Origin: Haloterrigena alkaliphila
GTDB taxonomy: Archaea; Halobacteriota; Halobacteria; Halobacteriales; Natrialbaceae
Assembly (NCBI RefSeq): GCF_017352155.2
Contig: NZ_CP071462.1
Span: 1,116,001 to 1,180,000, forward strand
Reading direction: 5' to 3'
DNA length: 64,000 nucleotides
Position 1 is the first letter of the stretch; each line of letters starts with the position of its first letter. Both the position numbers and the translations under genes were made by a program. The notes below the pieces were generated by a model. The model did no database searches, was not told the origin of the DNA, and saw only the letters and a list, made by a program, of their open reading frames with translations. This document shows, piece after piece, positions 11,881 to 39,261 of this stretch.

Positions 11881-12423
11881 ATGACCGAACGCGTTACCGT
11901 ATCGCTGGACGAGGACTCGAGCGCGGCCCTCGAGACGCTGCTGGCCGAGACGGAGACGGGACAAAGCGAGGTCGTCCGGCGGGCGCTGACGTTCTACGCG
12001 GCGAACTTCGAGGCCGCGAGCGGCCGGCCCAGCGACAACTTAGAACAGTACTACCAGATGCTGACGTCGGGCGAGCACGTCCTGCTGGACGTCGATTTCC
12101 TCCACGCCTTCCTCGAGCACTGCTACGGCGGCGGCGATCCCGACCCAGAGTTCGTCGCGGCGGCCGATCGCGTCTCCGACTACCACGCCCGCGAGTACGC
12201 CGGGCGGTTCGAGCGCGTCGGCGAGTTGCTCGAGTGGCTCTCGTTCTGCGGCTTCCTCGAGGTGCGCCGGGAGGAAGGGGACGTATACCATATCGTCTTC
12301 CCCTCGGAGGCTATCCGCTGGTTCATGACCCGATTCATCGAGCGGAGCACCGTCGACATGCCCACCGAGATCGAGATCGACCGGGGCGTCTCGAAGGTGA
12401 TCGTCACCGAGCGCCCGGACTGA
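11881..12423 (+). CDS. Ribbon-helix-helix transcriptional regulator with C-terminal sensor-like domain
   Basis: The 180-aa protein starts with a typical RHH/CopG module (TERVTVSLDEDSSAALETLLAETETGQSEVVRRAL, residues 2-37). An alpha-beta domain of about 130 residues follows that recurs in haloarchaeal RHH regulators and has no clear assigned ligand. It probably binds DNA as a dimer. No adjacent target gene is obvious. The NRAMP-hydantoinase operon downstream on the same strand, 214 nt away, is a possible target. Confidence 0.82.
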   Translation: MTERVTVSLDEDSSAALETLLAETETGQSEVVRRALTFYAANFEAASGRPSDNLEQYYQMLTSGEHVLLDVDFLHAFLEHCYGGGDPDPEFVAAADRVSDYHAREYAGRFERVGELLEWLSFCGFLEVRREEGDVYHIVFPSEAIRWFMTRFIERSTVDMPTEIEIDRGVSKVIVTERPD

Positions 12424-12637
12424 CTCGAGTCCGACCGCCACCACGCCGACGGACTGATTCGAATCCGACCGTCACTCGCGGCCGACGGACTGACTGTCAC
12501 ACGAATTCGTACGGTCACACGAGTTCATACGTCTTCATACGCGAACCGGCGCCGCTCGAGCGACGCGATTCGTCGTGTGTTCGGTTCTTAACAACCCTTT
12601 TGCTCGTTTCTGATATGGATGGATGTGGACACATATC

Positions 12638-13843
12638 ATGGGTGTTGTAGACCGACTCAAGTCGATCGGACCGGGCGCACTGGTCGCGGCGGCGTTCGTC
12701 GGACCGGGGACCGTCACGACCGCGAGCGTCATCGGCGCGGAGTACGCCTACCTGCTCGTGTGGACGATCGCGTTCTCGATTCTGGCGACGATGGTGCTCC
12801 AGGAGATGAGCGCGCGACTCGGCCTGATCACGAACGAGGGACTGGGTGAAGCGTTTCGAAACGAGTTCTCGAACCCGATCGCGAGGGGCGTTACGATCAC
12901 GCTCGTCGTGAGCGCGATCGGTATCGGCACCGCGGCGTTCCAGACGGGCAACATCGTCGGCGGCGCCGCCGGACTGGCGACGATCACCGGCGTCAGCGAG
13001 AACGTCTGGGGGCCGATCATGGGGCTGGTCGCCGCCGGCCTGCTGTGGACGGGGAGCTACAAGCTGATCGAGCGGGTCTTCATCGGCCTCGTCATCGTCA
13101 TGGGGCTGGCGTTCGTGCTCAACGCGATCATCGTCCGGCCCGATCTCGCCGCGCTCGGCGGCGGCCTCGTGCCGACGATCCCGGAGGGGTCGGCGTACCT
13201 GATCGCCGGCCTCATCGGGACCACCGTCGTCGGCTACAACCTGTTCCTGCACGCGAGCACCGTTCAGGAGCGCTGGGACGACGCCGACGACCTCGCGGCG
13301 TGTCGCACCGACACGATCGCGATGGTCGCCGTCGGCGGCCTCATCACCACCGCGATCGTCGTCACCGCAGCCGCGGTGTTCCCCGAGGGGACCCAGATCG
13401 CCGACGTCGGCGAGATGGCCGACCAGCTCGAGCCCGTCTTCGGCGGCTACGCGCTGACGTTCTTCGCGATCGGCCTCTTCGCGGCGGGCTTTACGAGTGC
13501 GATGAGCGCGCCGCTGGCCGGCGCCTACGCCACCGCCGGCGCGCTGGGCTGGGAGCGCGACCTGACGTCGACCCGATTCCGGGCGATCTGGCTGACGATC
13601 CTCGGCGTCGGCATCGTCTTCTCCGCGCTGGACTACAACCCCGTCGAGGTCATCGTCTTCGCGCAGGTCGCCAACGGCCTCCTGTTGCCGATTCTGGCGG
13701 TCTTCCTCATCTACGCGATGAACAACGACGACCTGCTGGGCGAGTACACGAACAGCCCCCTCCAGAACGTGCTGGGCGGCCTCGTCACGCTCGTCGTCGT
13801 CGGTATCGGCCTCCGAACGCTCTACGACGTGTTACTTCTCTGA
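12638..13843 (+). CDS. NRAMP-like transporter lacking the metal-binding signatures
   Basis: The 401-aa protein has about eleven membrane helices with an overall NRAMP pattern. However, the helix-1 DPGN metal motif is replaced (VGPGTVTTAS) and the helix-6 MPHN motif is replaced (GTTVVGYNLFLHAS). It therefore probably does not carry Mn2+ or Fe2+ in the classical way. The gene is followed 4 nt later by hyuA-type and then hyuB-type genes. The arrangement recalls Bacillus ycsG beside the 5-oxoprolinase genes, so uptake of a lactam, hydantoin or related amide is inferred. ATG 12638 is preferred over ATG 12623. Confidence 0.85.
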   Translation: MGVVDRLKSIGPGALVAAAFVGPGTVTTASVIGAEYAYLLVWTIAFSILATMVLQEMSARLGLITNEGLGEAFRNEFSNPIARGVTITLVVSAIGIGTAAFQTGNIVGGAAGLATITGVSENVWGPIMGLVAAGLLWTGSYKLIERVFIGLVIVMGLAFVLNAIIVRPDLAALGGGLVPTIPEGSAYLIAGLIGTTVVGYNLFLHASTVQERWDDADDLAACRTDTIAMVAVGGLITTAIVVTAAAVFPEGTQIADVGEMADQLEPVFGGYALTFFAIGLFAAGFTSAMSAPLAGAYATAGALGWERDLTSTRFRAIWLTILGVGIVFSALDYNPVEVIVFAQVANGLLLPILAVFLIYAMNNDDLLGEYTNSPLQNVLGGLVTLVVVGIGLRTLYDVLLL

Positions 13844-13847
13844 TCGA

Positions 13848-15986
13848 ATGAACGATTCAAACGGACACGACGCGAATTCGAACGCGACCACCGTGAACGC
13901 GACTACCGAACTGCACGGCAACGAACTGCGAACCGACGGCGGCCGGCTCGCGTCCGACGGCGCCACCCGGATCGGCGTCGACGTCGGCGGCACGTTCACC
14001 GACGTCGCCCTCTCCGTCGACGACGACCTCGTCACCGCGAAAGTGCCGAGCACCGATCCGCAGCACGTCGGCGTCCTCGACGGCCTCCGGAAGGCCTGCG
14101 ACGACGCGGGAATCGACCCCGCGGAGATCGACGAGTTCGCGCACGCGATGACCGTCTCGGTCAACGCCCTGCTCGAGCGCGGCGGGGCGCGGACGGCGCT
14201 GGTGACGACCGAGGGGTTCCGGGACGTCCTCGAGATCGGCCGGCAGGACCGGCCCGATCTGTACGACCTCGAGGCCGAGAAACCCGAGCCGCTGGTCCCC
14301 CGCGAGTTGCGCTTCGAGGTCGACGAGCGGACGACGGGCGCGGGCCTCGAGCGGCCGGTCGACGAAGCCGAGATCCGCGACCTCGCGGCCACGCTGCGCG
14401 AGCGCGACGTCGAAGCGGTCGCGATCTGTCTGCTCCACGCCTACGCCGACCCCGCAAACGAGCGCGTCGTCGCCGAGACGCTGCGCGAGGAACTCGACGT
14501 GCCGATCTCGGCCTCCCACGAGGTGCTCGCGGAGTTCCGCGAGTTCGAGCGCACGTCGACGACGGCGGTCGACGCGTACGTTCGCCCGGCGATCGACGAC
14601 TACGTCGGTCGGCTGGTCGACGAGGCCGAGGCGGCGGGGATTCCGGCGCCGCGGATCATGCAGGCCAACGGCGGCATCGCCGACCCGGAGACGGTCCGCG
14701 AACACGCTGTGACGACGACGCTGTCAGGTCCTGCGGCGGGCGTCGTCGGCGCGGCCGCGACCGTGGACGACGCCGACCTCGCCGGGCTCGTCACCTTCGA
14801 CATGGGCGGGACCTCGAGCGACGTGAGCCTCGTCCGTGACGGCGGGGCGGAGCGGACGACCGACGCAGAGATCGACGGCCTGCCGATCCGGACCCCGATG
14901 GTCGACGTGAACACCGTCGGCGCGGGCGGCGGCTCGATCGCCTGGGTCGACGCCGGTGGCGCGCTCCGGGTCGGCCCCGAATCGTCGGGCGCCGATCCCG
15001 GTCCCGCCTGCTACGGCCGCGGCGGCACCGATCCCACCGTCACCGACGCGAACGTCGTTCTGGGCTACATCGGCCCCGAGACCGCGCTGGGCGGCGAGAT
15101 GACGCTGGACGTCGACGCCGCCCGCGAGGCCCTCGAGCGACTCGCCGACGAGGCCGGTCTCGACGGGGCGCTCGAGGCAGCGCAGGGGGTCTACCGCGTG
15201 GCGAACGCGACGATGACGCGGACGATCCGCTCGGTGACGGTCGAGCGGGGCCACGACCCCCGCGAGTTCGCCCTGGTGGCCTTCGGCGGCGCGGGCCCGA
15301 TGCACGCCGCGTCGCTGGCCGGCTCGCTCGAGGTCGACCGCGTCGTCGTTCCGCGGCCGGGCGGCGTGCTCTCGGCCTTCGGCCTGCTCGCGGCCGACGA
15401 GAGCTACGACGCCGTCCGCACCGTCGGCGTCGATCTCGCGGAGGCGGCGCCAGCGGACCTCGAGGCCGTCTACGACGACCTCGTCGCGGACGTGCTCGCG
15501 GACGCCTCCGACCGGGACGCGGCGCGCGTCGAGCGCGCGGCCGACTGTCGCTACGCGGGCCAGAGCTTCGAGTTGACCGTTCCCGCCGACGAATCGTTCG
15601 ACCCGGCGGCGGTCGCGGAGCGCTTCCACGACGCCCACGAGCGTGCCTACGGCTACGCGATGGACGAATCGATCGAGGTCGTCAACCTCCGGGCGACGGC
15701 GACCATCCCGGGGACCGAACCGAGCATCCGCCACGAAGGGGCCGACGAGAGCGCGGCCCGTCTCGGGACGCGGGACGCCTACTTCCCCGAGACCGGTTCC
15801 GAGCCGCTCGAGACGACCGTCTACGACCGGGACCGACTGCCGTCGGGAGCCACGGTCGACGGGCCGGCGATCCTCGAGCAGGCTGAAAGCACCACCGTCG
15901 TCCCGCCGGCGTGGGCGGGCGAGATCCTCGCGGACGGAACGCTCGCGATGACGCGAGACCCCGACAGTCAGGAGGGAGACCGATGA
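13848..15986 (+). CDS. Hydantoinase/oxoprolinase family protein, subunit A (HyuA-type)
   Basis: The 712-aa protein is the ATPase subunit of the ATP-dependent hydantoinase/5-oxoprolinase/acetone-carboxylase superfamily. The phosphate-binding loop IGVDVGGTFTDVAL lies near residue 42, a second nucleotide motif FDMGGTSSDVSL near residue 315, and GPMHA near residue 485. A polar 40-residue N-terminal extension rich in Asn and Thr is unusual. The gene overlaps the subunit B start by 4 nt (ATGA), so the two subunits are made together. The substrate may be a hydantoin, oxoproline or a similar cyclic amide. Confidence 0.92.
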   Translation: MNDSNGHDANSNATTVNATTELHGNELRTDGGRLASDGATRIGVDVGGTFTDVALSVDDDLVTAKVPSTDPQHVGVLDGLRKACDDAGIDPAEIDEFAHAMTVSVNALLERGGARTALVTTEGFRDVLEIGRQDRPDLYDLEAEKPEPLVPRELRFEVDERTTGAGLERPVDEAEIRDLAATLRERDVEAVAICLLHAYADPANERVVAETLREELDVPISASHEVLAEFREFERTSTTAVDAYVRPAIDDYVGRLVDEAEAAGIPAPRIMQANGGIADPETVREHAVTTTLSGPAAGVVGAAATVDDADLAGLVTFDMGGTSSDVSLVRDGGAERTTDAEIDGLPIRTPMVDVNTVGAGGGSIAWVDAGGALRVGPESSGADPGPACYGRGGTDPTVTDANVVLGYIGPETALGGEMTLDVDAAREALERLADEAGLDGALEAAQGVYRVANATMTRTIRSVTVERGHDPREFALVAFGGAGPMHAASLAGSLEVDRVVVPRPGGVLSAFGLLAADESYDAVRTVGVDLAEAAPADLEAVYDDLVADVLADASDRDAARVERAADCRYAGQSFELTVPADESFDPAAVAERFHDAHERAYGYAMDESIEVVNLRATATIPGTEPSIRHEGADESAARLGTRDAYFPETGSEPLETTVYDRDRLPSGATVDGPAILEQAESTTVVPPAWAGEILADGTLAMTRDPDSQEGDR

Positions 15987-17617
15987 CGGAGAACGCCACC
16001 GAGTCCGACGGTATCGACCCGATCACCCTCGAGGTGCTGCGCAACCAACTCGAGAGCGTCGCGGAGGAGATGGGCCAGACCCTGATCCGCGGCGCCTACT
16101 CCCCCAATATCAAGGAGCGCCGCGACTGCTCGACGGCGTTGTTCGACGCCGACGGGCGAATGATCGCCCAGGCGGAGCACATTCCGGTCCACCTGGGCGC
16201 GATGCCCGCCGCCGTGGAGGCCGTCCTCGAGCACGATCCGAAGCCCGGCGACGTGTTCGTGCTCAACGACCCGTTCGCGGGCGGGACGCACCTGCCGGAC
16301 GTAACGATGGTGTCGCCGATCGCGCCCGACGGCGAAATCGTCGGCTACGCCGTCTCGCGGGCCCATCACGCCGACGTCGGCGGGATGACCCCCGGGAGCA
16401 TGCCGGCCGGCGCGCAGGAGATCTACCAGGAGGGGCTGCGGCTCCCGCCGACGCGACTCGTCGAGGGCGGCGAGCCCTGCGAGGACGTCCGCTCGCTCGT
16501 CCTCGCGAACGTCCGGAACCCGAGCGAGCGGAAGGCCGACCTGCGCGCACAGCAGGCCGCGAACGAGCGCGCCGAGGAGCGACTCGCCGCCCTCTTCGAC
16601 GAACACGGCCGCGAGACCGTCCTCGCGGGGTTCGACGCCGTGATCGACTACTCCCGCGAGCGGATCGAGAGCGAGATCGCGGCGCTGCCCGACGGCACCT
16701 ACGAGGCGACGGACGTCCTCGAGGGCGACGGCGTGACCGACGAGGACGTCGAGATTTCGGTCGCGGTGACGGTCGACGGCGAGGCCATCGACGTCGACTT
16801 CGCGGGAACCGCCGACCAGGTCGCGGGGAACCTCAACGCGCCGGTGGCGGTCGCCGAGAGCGCGGTCTACTTCGTCGTGCGCTGTATCACCGACCCCGGG
16901 ATCCCGCCGAATCACGGCTGTTACGACCCCGTGAGCGTCCACGCGCCCGAGGGGTCGCTGCTGAACCCGGAGCCGCCGGCCGCCGTGGTCGGCGGCAACG
17001 TCGAGACCAGCCAGCGCGTGACCGACGTGGTCTTCACCGCGCTCGCGGGAGCGGCGCCCGACCGCGTGCCGGCGCAGGGTCAGGGGACGATGAACAACCT
17101 GACCATCGGGGCCCGCGACGGCTCCTTCACCTACTACGAGACCATCGGCGGCGGCTTCGGCGCTCGAGCCGACCGCGACGGGATGGACGGCGTCCAGGTG
17201 GGGATGACGAACACGCTCAACACGCCGATCGAATCCCTCGAGAACGAGTACCCGCTACGGGTCGAGCGCTACGCGCTCCGGCCCGACAGCGGCGGTCGCG
17301 GCCGGTACCGCGGCGGACTGGGACTCGAGCGATCGGTCACCGTCGAGCAACCGGCCACGGTGTCGCTGCTGACCGAGCGCCGGCGCCATGCGCCGAAGGG
17401 CGTCGCGGGCGGCGAGAACGGCGCCACCGGCGAGAACCTGATCGACGGCGAGGCGGTCGCCGCGAAGACGACCGTCGACGTCGAGCGCGGGACGACCGTG
17501 ACCGTCCGGACGCCCGGCGGCGGCGGCCACGGCGACCCCGACGAGCGGGACGAGGCGGCGCTCGAGGGTGACCGAGCGTCCGGAAAGCGAACCGAACCCG
17601 CGGAGGAGGAGAGTTAA
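15983..17617 (+). CDS. Hydantoinase/oxoprolinase family protein, subunit B (HyuB-type)
   Basis: The 544-aa protein is the partner that carries out ring opening after subunit A activates the substrate with ATP. Family features visible are [25 protein letters not shown]-type segments near residue 45, the [13 protein letters not shown] block near residue 130, and the late [12 protein letters not shown] segment. Its start overlaps hyuA by 4 nt and its stop is 3 nt before the next gene, a tight operon. The preceding NRAMP-like gene probably supplies substrate. Confidence 0.92.
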
Positions 17618-17620
17618 CGG

Positions 17621-18373
17621 ATGGCGTCCGATACGGACGAGCCCGCCGACGTGGGCGGCTGGCTGGGACTGATCGTCCCCTCCTCGAACGCGACGGCCGA
17701 ACCGGAGTTTCGGCGCGCGCTCCCCGACGGAATCACCGTGCACAGCGCGCGAATGGAACTCGAGTCGGTGACCGTCGACGAACTCGACGCGATGAGCGAC
17801 GACGCGGCGCGGGCGGCCCGACTGCTCGGCCACGCCGACGTCGACGCGGTCGCCTACGCCTGCACGACCGGCAGCCTCATCCACGGGCCGGGGTTCGACG
17901 CCGAACTCGAGGAGCGACTCGCCGACGCGGCCGGCGTCCCCGCCGTCGCGACCGCCCGCTCGGTCGTCCGCGCCCTCGAGGCGCTCGAGGCCGACCGGAT
18001 CGCGGTCGTCACGCCCTACACCGCCGCGCTCGACGCGAAGGAACGGGAGTTCCTCGCGGCCGCCGGATTCGACGTCGCGTCGATCGACGGCCGGGGACTC
18101 GAGGCGAACACGGCGATCGGGGCACTGACACCCGACGACGCGGTCCGGCAGGTGCTCGATCACGTCGACGGTGCGGCCGCCGACGACCTCGACGCCGTCT
18201 TCGTCTCCTGTACGAACTACCGGTCGCTGGCCGCGATCGAGCGCCTCGAGTCGAAACTCGGGGTCCCGGTGATCACGAGCAACGGCGCGTCGCTGTGGGA
18301 CGTCTGCGGCGTTTCGGGGCTCGAGGGCGATCTCGACGGGCTCGGGACGCTGCTCGAGTGCGAGCGGTCGTAG
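17621..18373 (+). CDS. Maleate isomerase / Asp-Glu-hydantoin racemase family protein
   Basis: The 250-aa protein belongs to the two-cysteine superfamily that includes maleate cis-trans isomerase, arylmalonate decarboxylase and hydantoin racemase. Both candidate catalytic cysteines are present: Cys81 in ACTTGS and Cys197 in VSCTNYR, and VPSSNATAEPEF near residue 20 fits the maleate isomerase group. As the fourth gene of the operon it may racemise the hydantoin substrate or isomerise a dicarboxylate product. Sequence alone does not decide between these. Confidence 0.85.
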   Translation: MASDTDEPADVGGWLGLIVPSSNATAEPEFRRALPDGITVHSARMELESVTVDELDAMSDDAARAARLLGHADVDAVAYACTTGSLIHGPGFDAELEERLADAAGVPAVATARSVVRALEALEADRIAVVTPYTAALDAKEREFLAAAGFDVASIDGRGLEANTAIGALTPDDAVRQVLDHVDGAAADDLDAVFVSCTNYRSLAAIERLESKLGVPVITSNGASLWDVCGVSGLEGDLDGLGTLLECERS

Positions 18374-18475: not shown

Positions 18476-18808
18476 TCACTCCCGTAGATACCCCACGAGT
18501 CGATCGACCGCGTCGTCTAGCGGAGCGCTCCGAGTCCGGCCGAACCAGTCGAGAATATCGTCGTGAGACAGTGAGACGACCTCCTAGGGAACGAGAGAGC
18601 TGTCTTTCGGCAATCCGCCGTCGAGAAAATCTCCGTCAGTGAGCGGAATCGTTTCGTCGTACCACGTTCGCGTCGTGAGCGTGATTGCGACGTACTGGTC
18701 ACCGTCGAACGGATGAGCCGTCGTGTTGACGATCGCGAACGGCCGACGCGGCTTCTCTTCGTTGAACGGATCGCCGGCCTCGACGACGTCTCCGCGTTCG
18801 TATTTCAT
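18476..18808 (-). pseudogene. PemK/MazF-like toxin interrupted by an amber codon
   Basis: The frame starts at ATG 18808 (KYERGDVVEAGDPF, AIVNTTAHPFDG, YVAITLTTRTW) and reads 74 codons to a TAG at 18584-18586. It then continues in the same frame for 35 further codons (EVVSLSHDDILDWFGRTR) to TGA at 18476-18478. The family usually has VPWEV here, so a single G-to-A change of a Trp codon would explain the stop. The ATG overlaps the stop of the upstream winged-helix gene as ATGA. The truncated protein may be inactive, which would leave the pair without a working toxin. Confidence 0.75.
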
Positions 18809-19176
18809 CCCTCGTCCTCCCTCCGCTCGCTCGGATGACATGCATCGGCGCCGGCCTCCCGCCACGCGTCCATATCCTCCGCACCGAGTTGGTTGTCGAG
18901 TGCCTCGAGACTTCGACGCAGATCGACGGCGGAACGAATGCGCTGTGGATCGCCGGCAGCCCAGTACGGCGGCTTGTGTCGAACCAGATTCCGCTCCTTC
19001 AATCGGCTGAGGACCGCGCTGACGGCGTTCGGATCGATCCCCGTCGAATCGGCGATCTCCTGACGCCTGAACGCCTTCTCGTCGTTCGAAACGAGAAAGG
19101 AGACGATTCGCTCCGCCTGAGTCCGCTCCGCTTCGAACTCCGTCTCTCGTTCGAAGGTATCGATATCGATCGGCAT
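18805..19176 (-). CDS. Winged-helix regulator, putative antitoxin partner of the PemK-like gene
   Basis: The 123-aa protein begins MPIDIDTFERETEFE and contains a MarR-like helix-turn-helix (SNDEKAFRRQEIADSTGIDPNAVSAVLSRLKERNLV, about residues 25-62) followed by a wing and an acidic tail. It overlaps the toxin ATG by 4 nt, the arrangement of haloarchaeal HTH-PemK pairs. The upstream region is AT-rich (CATATGTCTGTTTTCG). Its N-terminus resembles that of the regulator at 57299. Confidence 0.8.
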   Translation of the reverse strand: MPIDIDTFERETEFEAERTQAERIVSFLVSNDEKAFRRQEIADSTGIDPNAVSAVLSRLKERNLVRHKPPYWAAGDPQRIRSAVDLRRSLEALDNQLGAEDMDAWREAGADACHPSERREDEG

Positions 19177-19317
19177 ATGTCTGTTTTCGTATTTGGAGAG
19201 TATGTTTGTTTTCCTCGTTTGTGTCTTTGTTGCGGTCCCGCGCGGCCCGTGATGGAGGCAAGACCGCTCTCCATCGGTTTCGATCAACCTTTTGCCGGCG
19301 CCTCCGCATCCCCGAGT

Positions 19318-38828: not shown

Positions 38829-39261
38829 TCCAAGAATACTATACGTGGAATGTCCGGGTGAGTTCCCAAGAATCGGGCGCTGATAGCTCGACCCAGTGAT
38901 CCGGGACGATGTTACCCGCTCCCGGGGCGATCGCGGCAGGGTTTCCACCCGGCTAACTCCGTCTATACGGGTTCTGTCCGGGTACATTAGCCCTCGAAAC
39001 CCAGCGACGGCTCTAACCTCCCAATATTCGCCGAACAGGCCGACGCGGATCATTTTCAGCCGCCCTCTGAGGAAGCTACTAAGATGGTGTACCTCCGCGC
39101 CAGAATTGTCAGAATCACAGTATAGATATTATCTTTGTAAATACCCAATCAGGAGACGGCACAGGGGTGATCTCTCCAAGGGTTTGTTAAAGCCAATTGA
39201 CTAATGATCTTCCCTCCCGTATAGAGAGTGGATGTCCCATCCCACCTCACAGAAATTTGGT

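Follow-up and report, generated by a model that had tools for sequence, protein, structure and literature searches.

A lactamase-linked Nramp-related transporter without metal-site motifs in haloarchaea and bacteria: a candidate carrier of 5-oxoproline

Among the paraphyletic groups related to the Nramp (Slc11) metal transporters, EleNRMT and MntG are the only ones that are not uncharacterised (PMC12873925). MntG, or YcsG, belongs with PxpT and PxpG to a branch having an Nramp-related fold, GPG in transmembrane helix 1 (TM1), GN in TM3 and neither DPGN nor MPH, and whose genes adjoin those of a 5-oxoprolinase. Corynebacterium glutamicum requires pxpT to grow on 5-oxoproline, and the gene was complemented in trans (PMC13274462). 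For this YcsG/PxpT branch, 5-oxoproline carriage by an Nramp-like protein has already been proposed in print, and a substrate for the clade considered below would be new. Here, we describe a transporter of that second clade, hereafter designated the GPGT clade, encoded in a 64,000-nucleotide stretch of Haloterrigena alkaliphila (contig NZ_CP071462.1, positions 1,116,001 to 1,180,000), hereafter the window. The gene is followed by hyuA, hyuB and a gene of the racemase family; across the clade, the haloarchaeal genes adjoin hyuAB, of which 5-oxoproline is the predicted substrate, and many bacterial relatives adjoin pxpABC. We put at roughly 60% the probability that the transporter carries a cyclic amide, most likely 5-oxoproline (pyroglutamate), imported as food, with HyuAB opening the ring.

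An Nramp-type transporter without metal-site motifs

The preliminary description of this locus had recognised an NRAMP topology, with VGPGTVTT in place of DPGN and VGYN in place of MPHN, as well as tightly packed hyuA, hyuB and two-Cys isomerase/racemase genes after the transporter; Pfam bears out both observations, together with the alignment for the first and the open reading frames for the second. The transporter matches Pfam Nramp (PF01566) with 329.5 bits. Aligned with Deinococcus radiodurans Nramp (DraNramp), it has GPGT for DPGN in TM1 and VVGY for VMPH in TM6, and all side-chain metal ligands are replaced by neutral residues (D56 by G, N59 by T, M230 by V and H232 by Y). The TM3 positions of the DraNramp proton path are also changed (D131 to Q, E134 to N), the clade as a whole having E or Q, and N, at these sites. 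None of the canonical marks (DPGN, MPH and TM3 D131/E134) is present in the window transporter, and the DAGG (TM1) and APW (TM6) marks of NRMT are absent from it. In TM6 the clade mostly reads V(P/G)Y and the window protein VGY. A 48-sequence alignment shows no variation in the GPG of TM1 or the YN of TM6, so this replacement of motifs is not a matter of chance.

An AlphaFold2 model of the transporter (pLDDT 90) displays the LeuT/Nramp fold, and a fold search with it returned Nramp structures at the top (TM-score 0.8-0.87), followed by LeuT-fold amino acid carriers and Mhp1. Since the model is confident and matches Nramp and LeuT-fold carriers, the fold is that of an intact carrier. An integrative model of B. 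subtilis YcsG, its sole PDB entry, also came up in the fold search, and did not come up in the sequence search. Canonical Nramp/MntH proteins (DraNramp, BfraNramp) resemble the window transporter in fold (TM-score ca. 0.8-0.85), length and sister position in the tree, but differ by the metal ligands and proton-path residues that it has replaced. EleNRMT, a Mg2+ transporter that is also Nramp-related, gave the highest structural score (0.87) but has the DAGG and APW motifs and falls in a separate branch. Three more Nramp paralogues occur in the same genome (contig C1, 2287235, 3263922 and 151747), with just 109-120 bits to Pfam Nramp; the first of them, with the motifs FGAGS and VYWPN, likewise lacks metal residues.

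Based on a quick maximum-likelihood search, all GPGT proteins form one clade (98%) adjoining the canonical Nramps (84%), in a tree whose deep order is unsure because several outgroup branches are long. The clade is apart from NRMT (100%), from other Nramp-related rows and from the YcsG-type proteins (100%), represented not by B. subtilis YcsG itself but by plasmid and Alkalihalobacillus proteins identified through their pxpA neighbours and, mostly, a YcsI-type gene as well. Members of the YcsG/PxpT branch differ further by GPGF and VGGY motifs, and by an association with pxpABC, often with a YcsI-type putative hydro-lyase, and not with HyuAB; pxpA adjoined the transporter gene in 5/5 plasmid loci read and in Alkalihalobacillus. 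Both Nramp-related branches occur in the single genome of Alkalihalobacillus algicola (loci L152 and L192), each beside its own pxp set, so that this genome lends itself to comparing the two transporters. By its residues, the GPGT clade appears to be the 'orphan' Slc11 outgroup named in 2023, for which no function was given (PMC10606218): the Y and N four apart in helix 3, the V and Y in helix 6, and the T, of that outgroup correspond to the clade consensus YExGN and TVVPYN, although in helix 3 the window protein and its own family carry F where the outgroup has Y.

Lactam-opening neighbours in haloarchaea and bacteria

The transporter, hyuA, hyuB and racemase-family genes of the window follow one another on the + strand, either 3-4 nt apart or overlapping by 4 nt. 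The metal ligands of CapB, D41/H99/D102/H124 (PMC8453981), are kept as D48/H103/D106/H128 in the window HyuB. HyuA and HyuB domains with this D/H/D/H site are shared with CapAB, N-methylhydantoinase and 5-oxoprolinase and place the window pair in the ATP-dependent lactamase family (HyuAB/CapAB/oxoprolinase); scores against the CapA and CapB models (ca. 516 and 292 bits) are far under their cut-offs of 1000. In the fourth protein, C81 and C197 align with the cysteines of maleate isomerase, and 38 of 40 haloarchaeal copies retain the pair; the protein is likely to be a racemase or isomerase. Its gene parallels the YcsI-type gene of the YcsG operons. Relatives of YcsI include a D-glutamate cyclase, so that both products may deal with D-forms.

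Of 391 Halobacteria sampled by protein search, 112 encode the transporter; they span 37 of 86 genera, and the matches are cleanly separated from other Nramp paralogues. Neighbours were counted in 51 haloarchaeal loci fetched across genera: hyuA-hyuB directly follows the transporter in 49, is nearby but inverted in one (L089) and is absent from another (L058); 42 loci encode an RHH regulator no more than ca. 1.2 kb upstream, and 39 include the racemase-family gene. The same module was found on plasmid records of Haloferax, Haloarcula, Haladaptatus, Halocatena and Halorussus, and a Natrononativus plasmid record has the regulator and transporter only. The HyuB subfamily occurs in 268 of the 391 genomes, namely 111/112 transporter carriers versus 157/279 others (Fisher p 3e-21), one carrier (G006) with a partial HyuB match being counted as positive from its locus neighbours. 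The sole carrier without this HyuB (G099) has PxpA. Neither the RHH regulator nor the racemase-family gene was found beside hyuAB in 19/19 loci of haloarchaeal genomes without the transporter; hyuAB is therefore a common two-gene unit, with which transporter, regulator and racemase travel as an add-on. These lone loci are consistent with uptake having been added to a housekeeping lactamase. No GPGT-clade transporter adjoins the haloarchaeal pxpA loci, and a test of whether PxpA and HyuAB exclude each other in haloarchaea was negative.

The locus without hyuAB (L058, genome G011) encodes the most divergent haloarchaeal member (55% identical), adjoined by the racemase-family gene, then by a creatininase-family gene and a convergent carbamoylase gene. 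The last two were considered as a replacement for HyuAB, which was rejected since the genome carries the same HyuAB elsewhere; this transporter may have a different substrate. Four more HyuB copies are encoded on a second contig of the window genome (C2, 285 kb, at 38891, 48844, 156288 and 167664).

A scan of GTDB genomes with the family alignment gave at least 591 stretches encoding relatives, of which the best 80 were read, including two from haloarchaea with hyuAB. In 33 of these 80 loci, pxpA, pxpB and pxpC are adjacent or within ca. 5 kb, mostly as genes +1, +2 and +3; they belong to Bacteroidota, Bacillota, Gammaproteobacteria (Pseudomonadota) and one Streptomyces (Actinomycetota). Two further loci, both from Bacteroidota, have a fused HyuA-HyuB of 1252 aa beside the transporter, for which NCBIfam did not distinguish oxoprolinase from hydantoinase. 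PxpABC is an established 5-oxoprolinase that is non-homologous to HyuAB (PMC8453981), and thus one transporter has, as interchangeable neighbours, unlike enzymes with a common chemistry. The haloarchaeal transporters form one clade (99%) grouping, with weak support (82%), with those of the Bacillota Alkalihalobacillus algicola and Natroniella acetigena, both pxpABC-linked, and the two rows with fused HyuA-HyuB fall among pxpABC-linked Bacteroidota (97%). This placement suggests that the neighbouring enzymes changed at least twice while the transporter stayed.

Substrate of the transporter and competing explanations

In the scheme proposed here, where substrate, direction of transport, coupling ion and stereochemistry are, like the regulation, what we infer, the protein would be a LeuT-fold secondary carrier whose TM1/TM6 site, without metal ligands, takes an organic anion instead of Mn2+ or Fe2+, most likely 5-oxoproline or a close cyclic amide. 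The neutral and glycine-rich GPGT segment could hold the carboxylate by main-chain groups; LeuT-fold carriers find partners in the main chain where TM1 and TM6 are unwound (PMC5809530). Inside the cell, the lactam would be activated by HyuA with ATP and hydrolysed by HyuB with its bound metal, yielding glutamate if the substrate is 5-oxoproline, and the racemase-family protein probably converts the unused stereoisomer of substrate or product. This reading is favoured because unlike lactamases adjoin one clade, because YcsG/PxpT is tied to PxpA and to growth on 5-oxoproline, and because the metal site is gone.

The opening of hydantoins yields N-carbamoyl amino acids. TIGR01879, a family of N-carbamoyl-amino-acid hydrolases and the one carbamoylase family covered by the search, is missing genome-wide in 30 of the 112 carriers, which include four of the six genomes from the window's genus; carrying the transporter and having this family show no association (p 0.12). 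In the window genome, the sole carbamoylase match (C2:123095) is on the same contig as the four extra HyuB copies. As these 30 carriers lack the carbamoylase family presumably required for hydantoin use, 5-oxoproline is favoured over hydantoins. The preliminary description had proposed an organic amide, such as a lactam or hydantoin, as cargo, on the precedent of Bacillus ycsG beside 5-oxoprolinase genes. The precedent was right and is backed by the C. glutamicum genetics (PMC13274462), ycsG being of a separate branch; as for the cargo, the neighbouring genes support a lactam, while a hydantoin is disfavoured by the carbamoylase counts. The phylogeny of the branch and its neighbours, suggested there as a check, gave a separate clade often linked to hyuAB or pxpABC. 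Neighbours unrelated to amide hydrolysis, which would speak against an amide carrier, were looked for in other genomes. Haloarchaeal loci gave hyuAB, many bacterial ones pxpABC and two from Bacteroidota a fused HyuA-HyuB, each belonging to the ATP-dependent enzymes of lactam-opening type; roughly half of the bacterial loci, most of them gammaproteobacterial, have none of these neighbours.

Several observations weigh against the import of 5-oxoproline. In 43 of the 80 loci read, nearly all gammaproteobacterial, no lactamase adjoins the transporter; 17 of 18 such unlinked gammaproteobacterial genomes carry PxpA elsewhere, which is consistent with the proposal but weak support because PxpA is common in bacteria. 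NCBIfam and PDB matches bring HyuA and HyuB equally close to caprolactamase, N-methylhydantoinase and oxoprolinases, and the specificities of the HyuAB family (hydantoins, caprolactam, oxoproline) were not told apart by sequence. HyuAB and PxpA occur together in 29 of 36 PxpA-bearing haloarchaea, so the two may not share one substrate. Since HyuAB also occurs without the transporter, and sometimes beside PxpA in one genome, its substrate in haloarchaea is one that we infer. The haloarchaeal branch could instead carry another cyclic amide (a 5-substituted hydantoin, an imide or another lactam), with a HyuAB of different specificity and a hydantoin racemase as the fourth protein, an arrangement recalling bacterial hydantoin clusters. 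We regard this as unlikely, though the best placed of the alternatives, given that the operon is without a carbamoylase gene, that TIGR01879 is distributed as described above and that the bacterial transporters closest to the haloarchaeal branch are linked to pxpABC.

EleNRMT carries Mg2+ and Mn2+ without the canonical motifs, showing that loss of the motifs does not exclude metals. The transporter may still import a divalent metal (Mn2+, Mg2+ or Zn2+), supplying HyuB or, in bacteria, PxpA. Although we hold it for less probable again, metal supply is a live rival because overexpression of B. subtilis YcsG raised cell Mn2+, for which it was named a Mn2+ importer (PMC10448178), and because the lactamase subunits need metals, with a D/H/D/H site retained in HyuB (PMC8453981) and a PxpA that is probably metal-dependent. 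However, every side-chain metal ligand is replaced by a neutral residue, most HyuAB-bearing haloarchaea do without the transporter, and a metal importer dedicated to one enzyme would be unusual; in addition, the C. glutamicum pxpT deletion mutant is normal on glucose and does not grow on 5-oxoproline (PMC13274462). Finally, export of the lactam or its product, or a role as sensor, is very improbable: sequence does not tell direction, and 5-oxoproline also forms inside cells from glutamine and glutamate, but pxpT mutants lose growth on external 5-oxoproline (PMC13274462) and in haloarchaea the transporter gene shares a tightly packed operon with those of a breakdown enzyme.

Upstream elements, flanking genes and wider meaning

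The features of the locus are collected in Table 1. The tandem repeats sit between the genes of the RHH regulator and the transporter. Across 52 upstream regions, TTCAYAY was found in 45 (shuffled mean 5.5) and paired TCAYAY in 28 (shuffled mean 0.2), and from this pattern the repeats of the TTCATACG type are candidate operators conserved in haloarchaea. The RHH protein would bind them and probably controls the operon in this way, with TTAACAACCCTTTTG as the putative promoter. Beyond the operon, two small genes on the - strand (18584-19309) encode a helix-turn-helix-like protein and a PemK/MazF-like protein (KYERGDVVEAGDPFNEEKP...), possibly a toxin-antitoxin pair; similar pairs of small genes lie at the same position downstream of hyuB in two other loci (L232 and L238).

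Table 1. Elements of the transporter-hyuAB locus, in window coordinates
Feature	Position	Strand	Basis
RHH/CopG-family regulator, 180 aa, C-terminal half uncharacterised	11881..12423	+	Pfam RHH_1
Five tandem repeats, type TTCATACG/TCACACG, period 9-10 bp (12497, 12506, 12515, 12524, 12534); candidate operator	12497..12541	+	sequence
TTAACAACCCTTTTG, promoter-like conserved element	12588..12602	+	recurs at similar distance in many upstream regions
Nramp-related transporter, GPGT clade	12623..13843 (alternative start 12638)	+	Pfam, alignment, tree, model
hyuA, ATP-dependent hydantoinase/oxoprolinase large subunit	13848..15986	+	Pfam Hydantoinase_A, Hydant_A_N
hyuB, metal-site subunit	15983..17617	+	Pfam Hydantoinase_B, 705 bits
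AMDase/maleate isomerase/Asp-Glu racemase family protein, two catalytic-type Cys (81, 197)	17621..18373	+	Pfam Amdase/Asp_Glu_race

In the open-licence literature, nothing was found that ties the GPGT branch, archaea or HyuAB to Nramp-like 5-oxoproline carriage, nor any link between Nramp and hydantoinase. We give even odds to the broader proposal that 5-oxoproline carriage is common to the whole GPGT clade, to date the orphan sister of the Nramp/Slc11 metal transporters, in bacteria and archaea alike. In that case Nramp would have carriers of an organic anion as its nearest relatives, the metal site having arisen, or been lost, at that split, and the origin of Nramp metal selectivity could be studied against a non-metal sister group. 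The conflict over YcsG (Mn2+ or 5-oxoproline) would gain independent comparative evidence, and hundreds of annotations would be wrong, RefSeq labelling proteins of the clade 'Nramp family divalent metal transporter'. Pyroglutamate is accumulated as a compatible solute by halophilic methanotrophs (PMC13274462), and the finding, if true, would suggest how many haloarchaea feed on it.

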